From the IMG/VR virus record IMGVR_UViG_3300004278_000015, positions 1-25,122 of that record: a DNA stretch of 25,122 nt, one strand, 5' to 3'. Positions 89-8,891 of this stretch are shown one piece after another. This DNA comes from a virus. Each line of letters opens with the position of its first letter. Positions within the stretch are counted from its first letter, which is position 1. The notes under the pieces were generated by a model. That model was not told the origin of the DNA. It saw nothing but the letters and a program-made list of their open reading frames with translations, and ran no database searches. A program made the position numbers and the translations under genes.

Positions 89-367
89 TCAAATCTGACA
101 GTTTTGATTTTTTTGCTCAGCAGATATGGACTGGTGTAACATTACAAGATAGCCTATTGCACTGATGATTTTGTCGTTTGCCCTTTGGTTCAGTCCATTG
201 CTATGCAATTCTATGGCTTCCAATAATCGCACATCTATATGGCACATTTTAACATGTACTGGATCATCTAATTTATCACAATCATATGTCCCATTCACCA
301 CCTGATTATCAAAATTATTTTTTATTGCAGGCAGAACTACCTGTTGCAAGTGATATAATTTACCCAC
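89..367 (-). CDS. hypothetical small protein
   Basis: A 92-residue protein that I do not recognise. No ATG fits the start. A GTG at 367 sits 5 nt after a perfect AGGAGG, and a TTG one codon further upstream is the alternative. It overlaps the end of the sulfotransferase-like gene by 8 bp, so the two are probably translationally coupled. The sequence looks mostly helical, with a hydrophilic middle (YDCDKLDDP) and an Asn/Gln-rich end. It has two cysteines and one histidine-rich patch but no clear metal site, signal peptide or membrane segment. Its place at the end of the base-modification cassette suggests a role there, but nothing in the sequence proves it. Confidence 0.6.
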   Translation of the reverse strand: MGKLYHLQQVVLPAIKNNFDNQVVNGTYDCDKLDDPVHVKMCHIDVRLLEAIELHSNGLNQRANDKIISAIGYLVMLHQSISAEQKNQNCQI

Positions 368-1133
368 CAATGCCTCCTGCTGTTACTAGATTTTTATCAA
401 TTACACTTTTATTCAATTCCATCCCTACAAATAATTCTAGCCCTTGGATGTTCCCTTCCTGCAATTCCTTGAAATCTACATAAAATACATTTTTGCAATG
501 TTGGGTAACACTATTGATGGCAGATCCGTATATATCACAATACTTTTTAAATGATGTAAAATCATTAACATAATGGTCACCATACACTATGGATCTATTG
601 AAAATAGATCCATATATATTTTGCATTGATGCATATGTTGCATCAGGATGTCTTTGTGTAATAATAATTTTGTGATATTTTAAATTCCACTGGCCTAGTG
701 TAAAAGGAAATCTAACATCTTTGATTGCCCATGGCTGATTCAGGTTGTTGTAGCAAAATTCTATGTAATTTCTGTGTTGTGTCAATTGTTCCAATGTTCG
801 GAAATGAGCCATATTCCAGTTATCTCTTCTGGTATAGTCATTTACCATAGGGATAGCCTCATAATAATCCTGTTCGTGTAGCGGAAAGTCCCCATCTACA
901 TCATAAGGTTGCAGGAATGATGAATATGGCACATTTGCCCTCATGAGCTGGTCATTTATTTTTATTATATTCCTGACCTCAAAATATCCCTTTTTATTGT
1001 ACTCATCCTTTCCCATCATTTTGAAAATTCCACCAGCATCTAAATTCCAGCCTGCATCTGACAGCAGGTTTGTGACCAAAGATGTGCCTGTTCTAGGCAT
1101 CCCCATGATTATTATGTTGTTATTGTATTCCAA
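360..1133 (-). CDS. sulfotransferase-like P-loop protein
   Basis: A 257-residue P-loop transferase. The N-terminal motif GMPRTGTS (residues 11-18) is the phosphosulfate-binding loop typical of sulfotransferases. Around 137-169 come IKDVR and RHPDATYAS, which resemble the second nucleotide-binding motif of that fold (IKDPR, RxP...S). The family moves a sulfuryl group from PAPS, but P-loop proteins of this type also include kinase-like enzymes in phages. The start is a TTG at 1133, 4 nt after AAGGAGG. The first ATG would fall at residue 10, inside the beta strand leading to the P-loop. It overlaps the kinase gene by 22 bp. In the modification cassette it could modify a base or be the 5-hydroxymethyl-dU DNA kinase. 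The family call is fairly sure, the substrate is unknown. Confidence 0.7.
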   Translation of the reverse strand: MEYNNNIIIMGMPRTGTSLVTNLLSDAGWNLDAGGIFKMMGKDEYNKKGYFEVRNIIKINDQLMRANVPYSSFLQPYDVDGDFPLHEQDYYEAIPMVNDYTRRDNWNMAHFRTLEQLTQHRNYIEFCYNNLNQPWAIKDVRFPFTLGQWNLKYHKIIITQRHPDATYASMQNIYGSIFNRSIVYGDHYVNDFTSFKKYCDIYGSAINSVTQHCKNVFYVDFKELQEGNIQGLELFVGMELNKSVIDKNLVTAGGIGG

Positions 1134-1660: not shown

Positions 1661-2766
1661 GGGTATATCTTCCTGTATGCTGAGAAAGCACGGCCAAGGC
1701 CTAAACATATAAGATCAAATTCAACATCAGTAATATTAAAATTCCACGCCATTATTATCCAATCTTTTTGTAGCACAGGCAATATTATACCTGCATCGTC
1801 AAGTTGTGCCTGCATTATTTTTGAATCACACATAATTCCAACCAAATTCCCTTCTCCCATGGGGATAAATTTATATTTTTGTGCAATGTTCTTGACAGCT
1901 TCATTTCTAGCTTTCACTGTTGGCAGATGCCTCTTAATTTCCTTGATAACATTAAGTGTCCAGTGTAAATCTTTCTCCCTTCCTGAGTAGGTAGAAAAGT
2001 GATCACCAACTTTCATTACTTGCCCTGCTCTCTCATTTATGCAAGTCAATGCTACACCTTTGCCTGCAGAAATTCCTTTGGCCAGAGCGCACATATCAGG
2101 CTTTATATCCCATGATTCATGAGCAAATATATTAGTGCCCCATCTTCCTGCTCCAACTTTTATTTCATCAAGTCCTAGCAGGACATCATATTTGTTTCTA
2201 GCCACATTGATGCCGTCCCAGAATGAATCAGTGTAAGGCATAATTTTATGGTGGGTGAAAACTGTAGCCAGCAAGATCCCTCCACAATCATCTTTGATTT
2301 CTGATGGTAATGAAAAGAATTTCACCCATGGCAATAATGGTTCAAAGCCAATCCGGTTATGTGTATCTGTTACTGATAAACTTCCCAATGTCCTGCCGTG
2401 GAATCCATCTCTGTAAGCATATATAAATTTGTCATCCCTGCCATTATCAACCATGTGTTTTCTCATGATTTTTATCATGACTTCCACTGATTCTGATCCA
2501 CTGCCTGACATCCATATATATGGAAATCCTAGAATTTCAGATAATTGCTCATAGTCTTTTTCACGTGTACTGCTAGTGTACATTAATGGCATAAAATTAG
2601 GTCTTGTCAATGGCATTCTCATTTTTGGATAATATCCCAAACTCAAAATACCAGCATCATTGAAAAGATCATACATCACTCTGCCATCTATATCCATTAC
2701 AGCTAGGCTATTATCTACATATATAGGAAATATTTTAGCATATGGATTTACCATGGGTAACATCAT
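1654..2766 (-). CDS. class III PLP-dependent aminotransferase-like enzyme
   Basis: About 370 residues of fold-type I, aminotransferase class III (ornithine/acetylornithine aminotransferase group). Visible motifs are SGSGSESVEVMIK (phosphate-binding area), FHGRTLGSLS (FHGRT block), LGLDEIKVGAGRWG (the DE pair that holds the PLP pyridine nitrogen) and ALAKG, whose lysine near residue 230 forms the Schiff base. Odd: the block normally reading EPIQGEGG is replaced by ATVFTHHKI, and the STFGGNP block is changed to STYSGREKD, so substrate or chemistry probably differs. The ATG at 2766 overlaps the ThyX stop (ATGA); a GTG at 2781 is possible. Hypermodified-thymine phages use PLP enzymes to process amino acids attached to the base, which fits this cassette, but a role in cofactor or polyamine metabolism is also possible. 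Confidence 0.8.
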   Translation of the reverse strand: MMLPMVNPYAKIFPIYVDNSLAVMDIDGRVMYDLFNDAGILSLGYYPKMRMPLTRPNFMPLMYTSSTREKDYEQLSEILGFPYIWMSGSGSESVEVMIKIMRKHMVDNGRDDKFIYAYRDGFHGRTLGSLSVTDTHNRIGFEPLLPWVKFFSLPSEIKDDCGGILLATVFTHHKIMPYTDSFWDGINVARNKYDVLLGLDEIKVGAGRWGTNIFAHESWDIKPDMCALAKGISAGKGVALTCINERAGQVMKVGDHFSTYSGREKDLHWTLNVIKEIKRHLPTVKARNEAVKNIAQKYKFIPMGEGNLVGIMCDSKIMQAQLDDAGIILPVLQKDWIIMAWNFNITDVEFDLICLGLGRAFSAYRKIYPC

Positions 2767-3623
2767 AATTCGATCCCCCACATCTCACCATATAATTCCT
2801 TGCGTTCATGGAATTCTCCTACATCTTCCATTGGATATGGTTTGTGATTTTCCTGTAAATATAAAGGACAGGCGTGATGGCAATCAGATCCATCCACTCT
2901 GCGTTCATTCTCTAGTTTATATACACAAGTCTTAAAACAACTATTATCCATACACGGTGGTTGTGCTATATCCCTGAAGGCCGGATGGATCTTGGTTGCT
3001 AGTTCATTAATAATTCCGTGGATAATAGGAAACCACAAACCTGCCTGTAAAATCCAGCAGGATCTCTTGCCCATGATATGCTGAATAGAACAGAGATTTA
3101 ATGCCCAGCTGATCCTGTGCTGTGCTCCTAGTGGAATCATTTCCCTAGCATCTTCAATTGGAATGCGAGTTTTCCAATTATTGTATCTATCCTGTGCCTC
3201 AAGCATATCAGCATCCCACTCTTGCTTTTGCCTTCGTGTTAATCCATCAGGAATTCTGTAAGCCCCATAATCAGCAAACTTTCCCATGTCCTGAATTCTC
3301 ATACTCTGTGACCAGAATGTTGATGTATGGAGATCCGGTACAATATCAACTCCGATATTATCACCAACTTTCGTGCCGATGCGATGTCTCACCATTTGTT
3401 CCCTGAAAGATACAGAAACATTTTCAAGCATGAACACAAAAGATATATGCTCACCCACCGGAATATTCTGGGCAATTACTTTCTTAAATACTGGAAGGGC
3501 ATCCTTGATATTCACTTGATTAACATCCAGTAAGGGATCTTCATTTTTACTTGCTTCCCACAAGGCATATACTGTCTCAATTGGTTTATTTGACCATGAC
3601 ATTAATGTTACTTTTGGCTTCAT
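2763..3623 (-). CDS. thyX: divergent flavin-dependent thymidylate synthase (ThyX) with Cys-rich C-terminus
   Basis: A 286-residue ThyX homologue. ThyX makes dTMP from dUMP with FAD, NADPH and methylene-tetrahydrofolate. Seen: VGEHISFVFMLENVS and REQMVRHRIG (RHR at 79-81) match the family, SQSMRI (105-110) matches the later part of the ThyX signature, and EDAREMIPLG plus NLCSIQHIMGKR match the C-terminal core. Odd points: RHR and SxSxR are separated by about 22 extra residues instead of the usual short RHR(x7)S spacing, and residues 224-252 carry five cysteines (C-x4-C-x3-C-x14-C-x3-C) that could bind zinc or a cluster. The start ATG follows AAAGGAG and overlaps the upstream stop by 4 bp. The neighbours suggest it may be a dUMP hydroxymethylase instead of a methylase. 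The family is sure, the altered reaction is a guess. Confidence 0.88.
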   Translation of the reverse strand: MKPKVTLMSWSNKPIETVYALWEASKNEDPLLDVNQVNIKDALPVFKKVIAQNIPVGEHISFVFMLENVSVSFREQMVRHRIGTKVGDNIGVDIVPDLHTSTFWSQSMRIQDMGKFADYGAYRIPDGLTRRQKQEWDADMLEAQDRYNNWKTRIPIEDAREMIPLGAQHRISWALNLCSIQHIMGKRSCWILQAGLWFPIIHGIINELATKIHPAFRDIAQPPCMDNSCFKTCVYKLENERRVDGSDCHHACPLYLQENHKPYPMEDVGEFHERKELYGEMWGIEL

Positions 3624-4525
3624 TTTATCTCCTTTAGTGATTTGATTCTTGTAATATTTTCATGTTGGCAATTTTGGTTATATATTTTATCTACTAAATA
3701 CACTTTATAGCCTAGATTGGCAATGTTAATAGCAAATTTCGGGTTGTCCTCAACCATATAATCTATGTTTGGAAAATCCTTGATGACAGAATAATTTTTA
3801 TCTTCATCCCAGATGATAGCATCATATTGTAATTCACCATCTTTCAACCATTCCATAGTATCGGCAAAGATCCGGCTGTATTGCTTGTAAGGCCTACTGG
3901 TGAGCAGAATTATAGTTTTGCCTGCTTGTTTCTGCCTATCCAGAAAGTCTTTGGCACCATCACAAATAGGAATGTATCTTTTCTGGCCTGTATCTCTATA
4001 TTCATGTTTCAAAGCAATCATTTTATCCCATGACAGTACCTTAGCATATTCTTCATATAAGTCATAGGTTGTTATATCAATCCACACACCTGTTTGTTCC
4101 TTAATAAAATTTTGAAAGGCAATAGGATAATCACCAAGGACACCATCGATATCCACCGCAATACAATTGATATCTTCAAGTAAATTCAATTCCAATTCCT
4201 GCTTATATCTTTGCTCGCAAACTGCTGATTTTCTGAAATATTCACTATTGAAATGTTCTGGCTCCCAATCCCACAATATCCCTATGCTCAACCAGTATTT
4301 GAAAATGTCAATCCACTCCTCTTTCAGATTGCTGTAAATTACCTTCCTGTTACCTCTGTGAGTCTTGAAATTTATCTCACGCAATAGTTCGTGGATCTCA
4401 CCCTGTAATTGAAGGCAATATTCTTTGGTAATTTTTTGCCTTTCCTCATCAGTTACCTCATCATATTTTACAAAATTCTTATTGAACAATTTTTGATCAT
4501 GCCAAATTTGTTTCAAGTCAACCAT
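3620..4525 (-). CDS. MazG-type dUTPase fused to HAD-family phosphatase
   Basis: A 301-residue two-domain protein. Residues 1 to about 100 look like an all-alpha NTP pyrophosphatase of the dimeric dUTPase/MazG group: the metal-binding ExxE (EIHE, 43-46) and ExxD (EWID, 70-73) are present with the typical phage sequence LLREINFK between them. Residues about 120-301 are a HAD hydrolase: nucleophile motif VDIDGV (D125, D127), motif II LLTSRP (T209), a lysine near 243 and VEDNP (258-262). The first domain would turn dUTP (or dTTP) into the monophosphate, and the second could dephosphorylate a deoxynucleotide such as dTMP. Thymine-replacing phages such as SPO1 have both activities as separate steps. 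The start follows TAGGAG, and the gene overlaps both neighbours by a few bases. Domain calls are strong, substrates inferred. Confidence 0.82.
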   Translation of the reverse strand: MVDLKQIWHDQKLFNKNFVKYDEVTDEERQKITKEYCLQLQGEIHELLREINFKTHRGNRKVIYSNLKEEWIDIFKYWLSIGILWDWEPEHFNSEYFRKSAVCEQRYKQELELNLLEDINCIAVDIDGVLGDYPIAFQNFIKEQTGVWIDITTYDLYEEYAKVLSWDKMIALKHEYRDTGQKRYIPICDGAKDFLDRQKQAGKTIILLTSRPYKQYSRIFADTMEWLKDGELQYDAIIWDEDKNYSVIKDFPNIDYMVEDNPKFAINIANLGYKVYLVDKIYNQNCQHENITRIKSLKEIK

Positions 4526-5369
4526 AAATAATTTCTCCTATGTTTTTTGTTATATTCTCATATACATCAGTAATGAGCACTTTGGGATCCCACTGGGCAT
4601 ATCTACCAAAAAAGTAAATGCCTTGTTTCCTCATAGCAATACTAAACAAATTCAAGTGTTCTTGTTGCTCAGTATTGATGCGGATCTTGCCTGGAAAAAT
4701 TTTATGGTAAAATCCTTTTGCTTGCTCTAGGGATTCTGTTACCACTTCACATTTTTCATTGTGATATGTCTTACGATAGTAATGTACAGCAGGATCAGGG
4801 AAATATTCAAGGGTGATGCTATTATCATTGTGAGTCCTGAAACCATATTCTGTCTTGGTAAAAATAGGCCTATAATCAAAAGTGCATCGGCCTTCACCAG
4901 ATATGTTCATAAATATTGGCATGGCTATGGTGGATATTAATTTATCATATTTTATGTCATCCCCATCTTTAATCTTTATAACCTTATTGTAAATATTAAT
5001 ATCTGTAATATCAGATGATAACCTGATAGATGGGGAACATTTACTGATCATTTCTAAAATATCCAGATTATATCCTTCACATTCGGTAACTTTTAAACTT
5101 ACATCTTGGATCTGATCATAAACTTTCATTGAGTATTTTTTCTCAGGATCTTTAATGTTTCCATTTACAATCCACCTCACTAAAAATTTATTTTCCTTTG
5201 GTGTTAATTTATCATTAAGATATTCATGACAATAGAATGATGCTGACATATTAGAGAATGACAAATTGTGCCTTTTCTCTAGGATGATAATATCTTGAGT
5301 TGCCCCATATGCCTGTAGCATATATCCGGTCATCAATCCAGAAAGTCCACCACCCAGAATTGCTATCAT
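4518..5369 (-). CDS. FAD-dependent oxidoreductase (amine oxidase / UGM-like)
   Basis: A 283-residue flavoprotein. It begins with a Rossmann dinucleotide-binding motif (IAILGGGLSGLMTGYML, GxGxxG variant at 6-11, followed by the acidic ILEK at the end of strand 2). The C-terminal IYFFGRYAQW, followed by an Asp/Tyr helix, resembles the FAD-contacting end of the amine oxidase and UDP-galactopyranose mutase group. KYDKLISTIAMP is the usual domain-crossing segment. It is short for that group (normally 370 or more), so the substrate domain is reduced. The start ATG follows GAGGAGG and begins right after the MCM-like gene stop. FAD-dependent enzymes acting on amino-acid adducts are part of known thymidine hypermodification pathways, so a DNA- or nucleotide-level role is possible. 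The exact reaction cannot be read from the sequence. Confidence 0.72.
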   Translation of the reverse strand: MIAILGGGLSGLMTGYMLQAYGATQDIIILEKRHNLSFSNMSASFYCHEYLNDKLTPKENKFLVRWIVNGNIKDPEKKYSMKVYDQIQDVSLKVTECEGYNLDILEMISKCSPSIRLSSDITDINIYNKVIKIKDGDDIKYDKLISTIAMPIFMNISGEGRCTFDYRPIFTKTEYGFRTHNDNSITLEYFPDPAVHYYRKTYHNEKCEVVTESLEQAKGFYHKIFPGKIRINTEQQEHLNLFSIAMRKQGIYFFGRYAQWDPKVLITDVYENITKNIGEIIYG

Positions 5370-6671
5370 TTAAAATACCTCCTCATCACCAAAATCTGAC
5401 ACTGGCAATGTAATTTTACCTGACATCACATCCCGTAAAAAAGTGATAAATGCAGGTGTTTTTTTATACAAAGATGAATTGACTTTTATCAATGCTCTCT
5501 GATGCCTCAATACTTTTAGAATATCCTTTGCATTTAGTCGATCCCCCACCATGTCCTCAACATCTCCTAGATTCAACACTTCAGAATCCATGAACATGTC
5601 CACTGTCTTTCTAGGGATAATTTTCTTGACTTCCTCAACATCTCTCAGCACCAGCATCTCATTTTGTTTTTTTGCCCACTCATCATACCTCATCGATGAC
5701 TTAGAATAGCACTTTTCAAGAAAGTGATATGCAAATTCAGCATGCTCAGGATATACCATGACTCTTTCCCCATCCTCAGAACAGGAGAAAAATCGACAAG
5801 CAACAGCAACAGCCATCTTTGCCAATTTGATTCGTTGTTCCGCTGGCTCTACTATGGGAATGCCACTGTTATATTTCTTTCCCTGTGTAGATGCATAGTC
5901 AAGTATTGCTTGTGTGGCTTTAGCACCAATAATAACATCAGATGGTGTTCTTGACCATGCCCACAATATAAGATCCCTGTACAGCCTTTGCTTGATCTTT
6001 ATTTTCTGTTGTCGCTTCACAGCTTTATTATACACATCAGATTCAACATCACCAGATGCTGAAGTAATAACAATATCAAATCTACTTATATCTTCAGGCC
6101 TTCCTATTAATTCCCTGACAGACAATACACCATAGGTGTAAGTTTGCATTGGCTGACCTCTTCTGGCGTTTGATATCCAAATTAATCTAGTCCTTGCCCT
6201 TGTCTTTTCCATTTGAATTTTAATAATCTCTGCTATGCCTGTGGATCTTATTCCTGACATCATAGATATTTCATCAATAGATAGGCCGGATGCCTCATCC
6301 AACACAAATAATCTCCGGTCATTCAAAGGGATCTTGCCCCATTGTATATTCCACCGCTTATTTACTTGGGATAATCCACCGACTAATCCAGCAAATGTGG
6401 ATGATTCTCCTGTGCCCATTTCACCAAGTTTATAAAAATCCATAAGGCCTTTTACAGTGGCTGTTTTCCCTGTCCTAGTATCTCCAAGTATTAAGGCCTC
6501 AAGATAACCCTTCAGCACCATCCGGCCTTGAAATTCAAATCTCAATACAGAATGATAAACCAGATCCACAGTCAGCAGGAGATCCTGCCGTTCATTTATG
6601 CCAGTAATGATCTCAAGGTCACTGGCAATATCTTTATATTTTGAAATTAGTTGTTCAGTTTTTGTTAACAT
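5370..6671 (-). CDS. MCM-like AAA+ replicative helicase, ATPase half
   Basis: A 433-residue AAA+ protein. Walker A is GDTRTGKT (63-70), Walker B LFVLDEA (121-127), sensor 1 LIWISN (N168) and the MCM-type arginine finger GRPEDISRFDIV (R197), which parallels the LSRFD motif of MCM proteins. These motifs identify a DNA-unwinding hexamer of the MCM-like type found in phages and mobile elements. No N-terminal zinc/OB region is present: the protein starts at the linker (KYKDIASDLEIITGINERQD). Matching N-terminal features sit at the C-terminus of the primase gene at 7344-8891. It overlaps the YopX-like gene by 17 bp and has only a weak Shine-Dalgarno, suggesting coupling. After the AAA+ core comes a helical tail (about 330-433) that may be a winged-helix-like end. 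Confidence 0.85.
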   Translation of the reverse strand: MLTKTEQLISKYKDIASDLEIITGINERQDLLLTVDLVYHSVLRFEFQGRMVLKGYLEALILGDTRTGKTATVKGLMDFYKLGEMGTGESSTFAGLVGGLSQVNKRWNIQWGKIPLNDRRLFVLDEASGLSIDEISMMSGIRSTGIAEIIKIQMEKTRARTRLIWISNARRGQPMQTYTYGVLSVRELIGRPEDISRFDIVITSASGDVESDVYNKAVKRQQKIKIKQRLYRDLILWAWSRTPSDVIIGAKATQAILDYASTQGKKYNSGIPIVEPAEQRIKLAKMAVAVACRFFSCSEDGERVMVYPEHAEFAYHFLEKCYSKSSMRYDEWAKKQNEMLVLRDVEEVKKIIPRKTVDMFMDSEVLNLGDVEDMVGDRLNAKDILKVLRHQRALIKVNSSLYKKTPAFITFLRDVMSGKITLPVSDFGDEEVF

Positions 6672-7343: not shown

Positions 7344-8891
7344 TCATTCTCCTTTTATTTGAAACACCTTAAGTGCTTTTTTTAATTTTGGATTCATTTT
7401 AAATGTATCAATTGAATCCTGTGCTTTCCTTGCCTCATGTATCATATGAGTGGCATATTGAGTTTTGGGATCTGGTATTGTAATTCCCTTAAATACATAT
7501 ACCTTATTGCTTTCAATTCCATGGCCAATAAAAAATGCTTGCCTCACGACATATTTTTGTTCATCATTCTGATAGTCTATATCAGGGATGAGTCGGATCT
7601 CCTCAACATTCTTGGCCACCAATACCTCTGAATTGTACCTACTACAAGTTGATACAATTCCGGCTGTTTTACGGATATATAAATCTAATTCCTTTTTTGT
7701 GACTTGAATCATTTCTAGGATCTGCGTGGTGTTTAAATCAAAGGAAATATTTTTTCTGCCGTTAGCCAATCCCACTGGGCAGTAATGGCATTTTTTATCA
7801 AAGTCCTGATCACATGTAAAACAGATTTTTTGTGGAACTAAATATGGTGATAGATCCTTGCCAGCAACAAGCACTTTCATTTCAAAATGTTTAAAATAAT
7901 TTTTTGCTTCTGATGCCTCAGCTAATGGAGTTTCAATATAATTATTTATCACATCCTCATCTACTTCAGCAAGATATGGTTTTGTATTCTGGATCAGTGT
8001 CTTGAATTCTACAGATGTTTTTCCGTGGGTGATAAAATAATCTGTAACATCTCCATTATCAGGCTCTGTTATAGGTAGTTCCATTACATAAAGATTTTTA
8101 CAAACATCTTTTAAATAATCTGCTATCTTAAGAGATCCTGATTTGCCTTTCTCATCTATATCAAAACATATATATACAGTCTTTTGCTCGAACAATTTTG
8201 TCCAGAATGACTTCCAGATCCCTGCTCCAGATGTTACTGTAATGGCCGGAATTCCTAATTGGTTCAAAAGCATACAATCCATCTCACCTTCACACAGTAC
8301 AAGTGACGGCAGGTTCACATTCTCATATGGGAATAATTTTGCCTCACCATATCCGGCACCATAGGATTTGAATTTATCTCCTTTTGTGGTAGTCGGTGAA
8401 TATTTCCTGATATTTATACAATGTCCAAATTCATCGAATATCGGTATAGTATATCTGTTGTAGTGATAGCCTAGCCGGAATTTTTCAATAGTATCAATAT
8501 TGATACCACGCTTTGCTTGGAGATATTCCACAGCTTTGCTATTATTCAGTAGTGCTTCATGGTAGGATTCAACCTCACTAATATCTATTGTTTTCTTTGT
8601 TTTTTTCTTTGGCTGTAGGCCTAATTTATTGATAATAAATTGCTGTGCCTCATCTTTTGATAAATTCTCTGCCTTCTGGATAAATGTGAATATATTTCCT
8701 GATCCGCAATTTGAAAAACAATGCCATTGGCCTGTAGTTAAATTGTATGTGAAGGAAGGTGTTTTATCAGTATGGAAAGGGCACATGGTAGATACTTCTG
8801 TTGGGGATACTTTTGTTTGCTTTCCTTTGAAATAGTCCCCATAAAAAATCTGGTAGTGAATTACACTATTAATCTTGTCAATCAATTCCAT
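7344..8891 (-). CDS. DnaG-type primase (CHC2 + TOPRIM) with MCM-N-like C-terminus
   Basis: A 515-residue primase. The CHC2 zinc finger has C37, H40, C58 and C62 (CPFH ... CFSNC, with one extra residue in the last pair). The TOPRIM domain shows LVLCEGEMD (E201, D205), FDIDEKG (D244, D246) and DVTDYF (281-286). It would make RNA primers at the phage fork. From about 320 onward it leaves the DnaG pattern: SPYLVPQKICFTC ... CHYCPVG (C357, C360, C368, C371) is a second zinc site, and near the end GITIPDPKTQ and SIDTFKMNPKLKKALKVFQ resemble the N-terminal half of phage MCM-like helicases. The ATPase half of such a helicase lies two genes downstream. The start ATG follows AAAGGA. No DnaB-binding domain of the DnaG type is seen. 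Confidence 0.87.
   Translation of the reverse strand: MELIDKINSVIHYQIFYGDYFKGKQTKVSPTEVSTMCPFHTDKTPSFTYNLTTGQWHCFSNCGSGNIFTFIQKAENLSKDEAQQFIINKLGLQPKKKTKKTIDISEVESYHEALLNNSKAVEYLQAKRGINIDTIEKFRLGYHYNRYTIPIFDEFGHCINIRKYSPTTTKGDKFKSYGAGYGEAKLFPYENVNLPSLVLCEGEMDCMLLNQLGIPAITVTSGAGIWKSFWTKLFEQKTVYICFDIDEKGKSGSLKIADYLKDVCKNLYVMELPITEPDNGDVTDYFITHGKTSVEFKTLIQNTKPYLAEVDEDVINNYIETPLAEASEAKNYFKHFEMKVLVAGKDLSPYLVPQKICFTCDQDFDKKCHYCPVGLANGRKNISFDLNTTQILEMIQVTKKELDLYIRKTAGIVSTCSRYNSEVLVAKNVEEIRLIPDIDYQNDEQKYVVRQAFFIGHGIESNKVYVFKGITIPDPKTQYATHMIHEARKAQDSIDTFKMNPKLKKALKVFQIKGE

Follow-up and report, generated by a model that had tools for sequence, protein, structure and literature searches.

The gene at positions 2763-3623 (minus strand) of the window, by which we mean the whole 25,122-nucleotide stretch of IMG/VR virus record IMGVR_UViG_3300004278_000015 analysed here, encodes an insert-bearing ThyX-like protein of 286 residues. 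It belongs to a viral ThyX subfamily in an operon that is undescribed in the open-licence literature, where no account of either the subfamily or the cassette operon was found. Rather than a plain dTMP synthase, we take the protein, with moderate confidence, for a ThyX re-tasked as a C5 one-carbon transferase on dUMP, which would start a nucleotide-level route to a modified, probably aminated, deoxyuridylate. The family, the insert, the residue losses and the cassette linkage described below were all computed.

The ThyX fold and its inserted loop

An earlier note on this DNA had taken the open reading frame for ThyX without giving its strand, and the identification is confirmed. Pfam Thy1 (PF02511) matches the product at 57.5 bits against a gathering cut-off of 24.8. 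The HMM and structure-prediction comparison that the note had proposed places the AlphaFold2 model (mean pLDDT 85) closest to T. maritima ThyX (5chp; VIA-align Z 14.5, rmsd 2.7, 193 residues), and the top rows of the VIA-align result are all ThyX-family proteins. A search of the PDB with the family profile matched ThyX, while plain phmmer with the single window protein gave no ThyX match there. By its modelled fold, together with the Pfam match and family conservation, the protein is a ThyX. For the NCBIfam equivalog TIGR02170 (thyX) it scores 43 bits, under the cut-off of 87.9. This weighs against a simpler account, which we regard as somewhat unlikely: the protein would be an ordinary dTMP synthase with a lineage-specific loop, the dUTPase, ThyX and TMP kinase of its cassette would make dTTP, and the aminotransferase and FAD enzyme beside them would be separate and merely linked. 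The intact ThyX fold and dUMP residues speak for that account.

The RHR motif lies at residues 79-81 and SQSMRI at residues 105-110, with an insert between them, as had been noted. R81 is separated from the SxR serine (S107) by 25 residues; the T. maritima enzyme has 7 at this place, which sets the insert at 18 residues (T84-S101); the earlier size of about 22 versus 7 mixed two end points. Translation and alignments with relatives and T. maritima ThyX place the coding segment of the insert TKVGDNIGVDIVPDLHTS (residues 84-101) at 3321-3374 on the minus strand. The insert directly precedes the active-site loop.

A motif-centred scan of IMG/VR together with profile scans yielded 56 loci and, at 95% identity, 47 distinct full-length proteins. 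A scan with the whole single protein had a near-identical contig as its sole match, and it was the motif-centred query that retrieved the family. The insert is present in all 47 of these non-redundant viral relatives, none of which keeps the x7 spacing of ThyX between RHR and SxR: the distance runs from 25 to 44 residues, being mostly 25 and otherwise 26, 30-33 or 44. Around the insert, G83 and P96 are conserved in 47/47 relatives, D93 and W104 in 46/47 and S101 in 45/47. The alignments thus confirm that the insert in the window protein is not due to chance, since every full-length relative has one. Two scans covering 84,980 bacterial and archaeal genomes returned no relative.

The nearest relative in a collection of 50,697 phage records is the ThyX of Listeria phage LIS04 (LIS04_124, OQ999172), at 22.8% identity. 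This closest named-phage homologue is full-length, with the REQMVR helix and the HR(V/I)xW region in common; in contrast to the window protein, it has VRSKFASYWTQTSR without the insert, lacks the cysteine triad and has no aminotransferase cassette nearby. In phage SP-15, gp130 (L117:35670-36911), a proposed hydroxymethyluridylate synthase (PMC5977210), occupies the position that ThyX has in LIS04, in the vicinity of genes for a nucleoside deoxyribosyltransferase and an exonuclease; its Thy1 regions seem to be rearranged. Direct kinship between gp130 and LIS04 ThyX was weighed, given the shared neighbourhood, but the sequence of gp130 has diverged so far (it matches the insert-family profile at E 2e-4) that no function was transferred from SP-15.

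Residues 82-99 of the insert region have pLDDT values below 50 in the AlphaFold2 model, which, being a monomer, says nothing in this respect about the tetramer. PolA phages that have neither the aminotransferase nor the FAD gene conserve the insert just as strongly, which makes it a feature of the ThyX subfamily and not of the aminotransferase cassette. Its presence in phages without the aminotransferase favours an ordinary dTMP synthase and counts against a re-tasked enzyme. The absence of Tyr91 from some insert-less phage ThyX proteins is a further point against re-tasking.

Active-site residues and the cysteine tail

The window protein was aligned with T. maritima ThyX (TM0449, PF02511), with which it shares the fold, the RHR motif and the dUMP-binding serine and arginines, and counts were taken over the 47 relatives. 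In ThyX, R78, S88, R90 and R174 bind or activate dUMP (PMC6514825, PMC8316439). The three arginines correspond to R79, R109 and R187 of the window protein and are kept in 47/47 relatives each; Ser88 corresponds to S107 and is Ser or Thr in 46/47. The GVPxExAR...P region and the region of R174 are likewise shared with the T. maritima enzyme. Beyond its 18-residue insert, the window protein is set apart from TM0449 by replacement of the equivalents of H53, N85, Y91, R165, N169 and H178. Y91 becomes I110 and is Tyr in none of the 47 relatives, the H53 equivalent is His in only 3/47, and N85 becomes W104, with Trp in 46/47. At the position of the FAD-phosphate arginine (Mtb R190, T. maritima R165) the family has mainly small residues, with no Arg among the common ones and C178 in the window, and N169 and H178 are replaced in the family by His and Ile.

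In T. maritima ThyX a hydrogen bond between Y91 and H53 gates the folate site and N85 also holds H53; Y91 is a possible general acid in the transfer of the methylene, flavin oxidation becomes about 1000-fold slower when Y91 is mutated, and Y91 and H53 are both critical (PMC11940539). On the alignments, the H53/N85/Y91 switch is gone family-wide while the dUMP-binding arginines stay. It is fair to suppose that the active-site loop has been remodelled to serve another chemistry or to use another acid, for which D93, nearly invariant in the family, would be the natural candidate. The retention of the dUMP residues together with the loss of Y91, H53, N85 and the FAD-phosphate arginine across the 47 proteins argues for a re-tasked ThyX, and the absence of Y91 and H53 from essentially all members argues against ordinary dTMP synthesis.

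The tyrosine of ThyX also screens the reactive C5/N5 from solvent (PMC6514825), and its loss could let water in. This would suit a dUMP hydroxymethylase as such, whose product, 5-hydroxymethyl-dUMP, would lead to hmU in DNA that is decorated after replication; hydroxymethyl-dUMP is a known precursor in phage W-14 (PMC5977210). We think this improbable, as nucleotide-level chemistry suits the kinase and aminotransferase of the cassette better.

The C-terminal cysteines have exactly the spacing that had been reported, C224-x4-C229-x3-C233-x14-C248-x3-C252, but only three of the five are conserved. C224, C233 and C252 are invariant (47/47 each), C229 is Cys in 2/47 relatives and C248 is unconserved. 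The proposal that the enzyme is metal- or iron-sulfur-regulated, with a cysteine tail sensing redox or metal state, finds some encouragement in the invariant triad, in the nearly invariant R242 and D247 among the 47 relatives, and in the good confidence with which the tail is modelled by AlphaFold2. A ThyX of that kind would call for at least four conserved cysteine ligands, and three are conserved. The identical triad also occurs in the insert-less phage ThyX proteins ECO71P1 and SRB7757 and in a divergent paralogue without the dUMP arginine. The insert and the cysteines are therefore not one joint innovation, and the regulatory proposal is weak; we give it very little credence. A structural zinc site is possible, and so is a fourth ligand other than Cys.

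The five-gene cassette

In order of transcription the cassette of the window comprises a FAD oxidoreductase, a dUTPase_2/HAD fusion, ThyX, a class III aminotransferase and a thymidylate-type kinase, all on the minus strand, and their overlapping ends point to a single operon. The putative FAD-dependent oxidoreductase (4518-5369) is a divergent member of the cassette family, of protoporphyrinogen oxidase (PPO), amine oxidase or UDP-galactopyranose mutase (UGM) type. It matches the cassette FAD profile (E 1e-7) though it was excluded from profile building. Its Pfam matches are weak, as is its likeness to these three enzymes, and the best Foldseek matches are PPO and UGM, a hint only given the poor AlphaFold2 model (pLDDT 59). 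Its fold and substrate are poorly defined, which counts against a re-tasked ThyX. The second protein (3620-4525) joins a dUTPase_2/MazG-like domain (Pfam dUTPase_2 25.1 bits, PHROG matches, family alignment) to a HAD phosphatase domain, in which the DxD aspartates D125 and D127 are invariant in the family alignment.

The class III PLP aminotransferase (1654-2781; Pfam Aminotran_3 E 6e-32) has a start that overlaps the end of ThyX. In its alignment the catalytic Lys235 and the other PLP motifs are invariant; matches in the phage collection that look like host DNA within phage records were left out. The best PDB match of its family profile is acetylornithine aminotransferase 2eh6 (E 2e-103). Enzymes of the acetylornithine aminotransferase class turn an aldehyde into a terminal amine and back, using glutamate. 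The invariant lysine and PLP motifs and the overlapping frames favour the re-tasked reading; against it, the closest relatives of the aminotransferase use ornithine derivatives, not nucleotides. The dNMP kinase of thymidylate type (1112-1660) is identified by PHROG thymidylate kinase (E 6e-13), with Pfam Thymidylate_kin at threshold, and its family alignment has the P-loop GLDGSGKTT and a DRS motif. Its start is probably an internal Met (MLIIFEG), the open reading frame reaching 1708. By BLAST, the dUTPase/HAD protein, aminotransferase and kinase are conserved near relatives of the ThyX at about 25% identity.

Profiles find all four partner genes in 17/17 complete PolC loci as well as in the window, versus 0/24 PolA loci (Fisher p 7e-11). 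In the reverse direction, a search from the FAD gene recovers the whole cassette in 24/24 loci uncut by a contig end. Five loci have the genes in a different order, which means that the linkage is maintained and not merely inherited. The ThyX proteins encoded in cassettes group in a single clade (support 97/98). In the clade of the window the ThyX gene is obligately locked into the five-gene cassette. This linkage argues for a re-tasked ThyX, and the fact that the FAD and aminotransferase partners are never lost argues against their being bystanders of a dTMP synthase. In favour of the latter, a dUTPase, a thymidylate synthase and a TMP kinase also make up the ordinary route to dTTP, which also counts against re-tasking.

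Several further genes were seen in or near these cassettes. One cassette has two aminotransferase genes flanking the kinase (L140:11922-14744), and in several phages (L025, L026, L028, L034 and L054; cluster 23, e.g., L035:9180-9980) a methyltransferase-like gene with a weak DUF938 match is inserted in the cassette or close to it. In the window a sulfotransferase-family gene (360-1133, minus strand) immediately follows the kinase and has no counterpart in the gene clusters around relatives. An MCM-like AAA+ protein (5370-6671) and a DnaG-type primase (7344-8891), both on the minus strand, match two parts of one long PHROG, phrog_18685, as if they were a single polypeptide elsewhere.

In PolA phages the insert-bearing ThyX has other partners, namely a YfbR-like 5'-deoxynucleotidase, a nucleoside 2-deoxyribosyltransferase and often a radical SAM/SPASM protein (L018, L045-L053, L060 and relatives), a neighbourhood that possibly serves a different modification route. 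Such phages also have a second, insert-less ThyX-like paralogue (L022:7742-8647, L043:319-1224, L050:1759-2640, L053:1800-2678, L109:6235-7089) whose motif has degenerated to RVHRHxSFFSESHQL, with Gln in place of the dUMP-binding Arg90. The two ThyX genes are separated by a radical SAM/SPASM gene.

Other thymidylate synthases were sought in 14 contigs of 49-114 kb, some of which may be incomplete. ThyA (PF00303) was found in 0/14 by a search whose controls did match, and canonical ThyX is absent from 13/14. The exception is the contig of one cassette phage (L028), in which a second, canonical ThyX with RHRLASYAQESTRY and Y91 adjoins a dCMP deaminase, the cassette lying about 20 kb away; the two ThyX proteins of this contig are unlikely to be redundant. 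The presence of a canonical ThyX alongside the cassette, together with the lack of ThyA in the 14 contigs, supports re-tasking, and its retention tells against a dTMP-synthase role for the insert-bearing protein. Conversely, most large contigs show no second thymidylate synthase, a point against re-tasking that favours dTMP synthesis; the lack of ThyA in all 14 counts for dTMP synthesis too. Where the insert-bearing ThyX is the sole visible synthase of thymidylate type, this fits a dTMP role, thymidylate supply by the host, or full replacement of thymine. The profile for 5-hmU DNA kinase (PF18723) had no match in the 14 contigs, and its positive controls were equally silent.

The proposed reaction and its precedents

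A changed reaction such as dUMP hydroxymethylation had been suggested from the signature loop. The suggestion of a change is indirectly supported by the loss of H53, N85 and Y91 beside retained dUMP arginines, by the obligate cassette and by the one canonical ThyX found besides, but hydroxymethylation, a possible first step, is not separable from amine trapping or plain methylation. For the cassette we infer an altered chemistry, an order of steps and a product as follows. The dUTPase domain of the dUTPase/HAD protein would convert dUTP to dUMP, and the protein may destroy competing nucleotides. The insert-bearing ThyX would still bind dUMP and flavin and move a one-carbon unit to uracil C5, where the methylene would not simply be reduced to methyl and would instead be trapped by water, giving hydroxymethyl, or by an amine. 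A functional C1 group would thus be placed on C5, 5-hydroxymethyl being the simplest. The FAD oxidoreductase could then oxidize this group to an aldehyde and the aminotransferase convert the aldehyde to an amine with glutamate as donor, after which the kinase would raise the modified dUMP toward the triphosphate for incorporation by the phage polymerase.

A full aminomethyl-dUTP pathway is one concrete version of this scheme. In its most specific form, the cassette would make an aminated deoxyuridine triphosphate (e.g., 5-aminomethyl-dUTP) wholly at the nucleotide level, the insert with its invariant Asp and Pro would replace the Tyr91 lid, and thymine would be replaced in these phages. We consider this combination rather unlikely.

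Precedents for a re-tasked ThyX are PolB and MnmEG. PolB, which methylates UMP and dUMP in polyoxin biosynthesis, is a ThyX that has taken on a new function (PMC5954106), a paralogue recruited to modified nucleotides whose structure 4p5b matches the window model with Z 13.7. Unlike the window protein it belongs to a bacterial antibiotic pathway, and neither insert nor cassette operon is in evidence for it. In MnmEG, a C5 methylene formed with FAD and folate is trapped by an amine to give aminomethyl-uracil (PMC9626948). Its substrate is tRNA and its proteins are unrelated, so the likeness would be one of mechanism only.

The thymidine hypermodification systems of phages ViI, M6 and W-14, according to published accounts, resemble the cassette in having a phage-encoded C5 one-carbon step at dUMP together with PLP and FAD enzymes. 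They use a ThyA-type synthase, and hmU is modified after replication. The window cassette differs in having ThyX, a class III aminotransferase and a dNMP kinase, in phages whose 14 large contigs gave no ThyA. If the cassette makes a modified nucleotide, it would represent a ThyX-based entry to thymine hypermodification, and if that nucleotide is an aminated dUTP, the route would be distinct from the ThyA-based, post-replicative ones. A modified nucleotide would also account for the tight linkage of an aminotransferase and a FAD enzyme to a thymidylate-synthase-like gene that neighbours the replicative polymerase, and with the insert-bearing ThyX one could probe directly what Tyr91 contributes to catalysis and what becomes of the C5 methylene.
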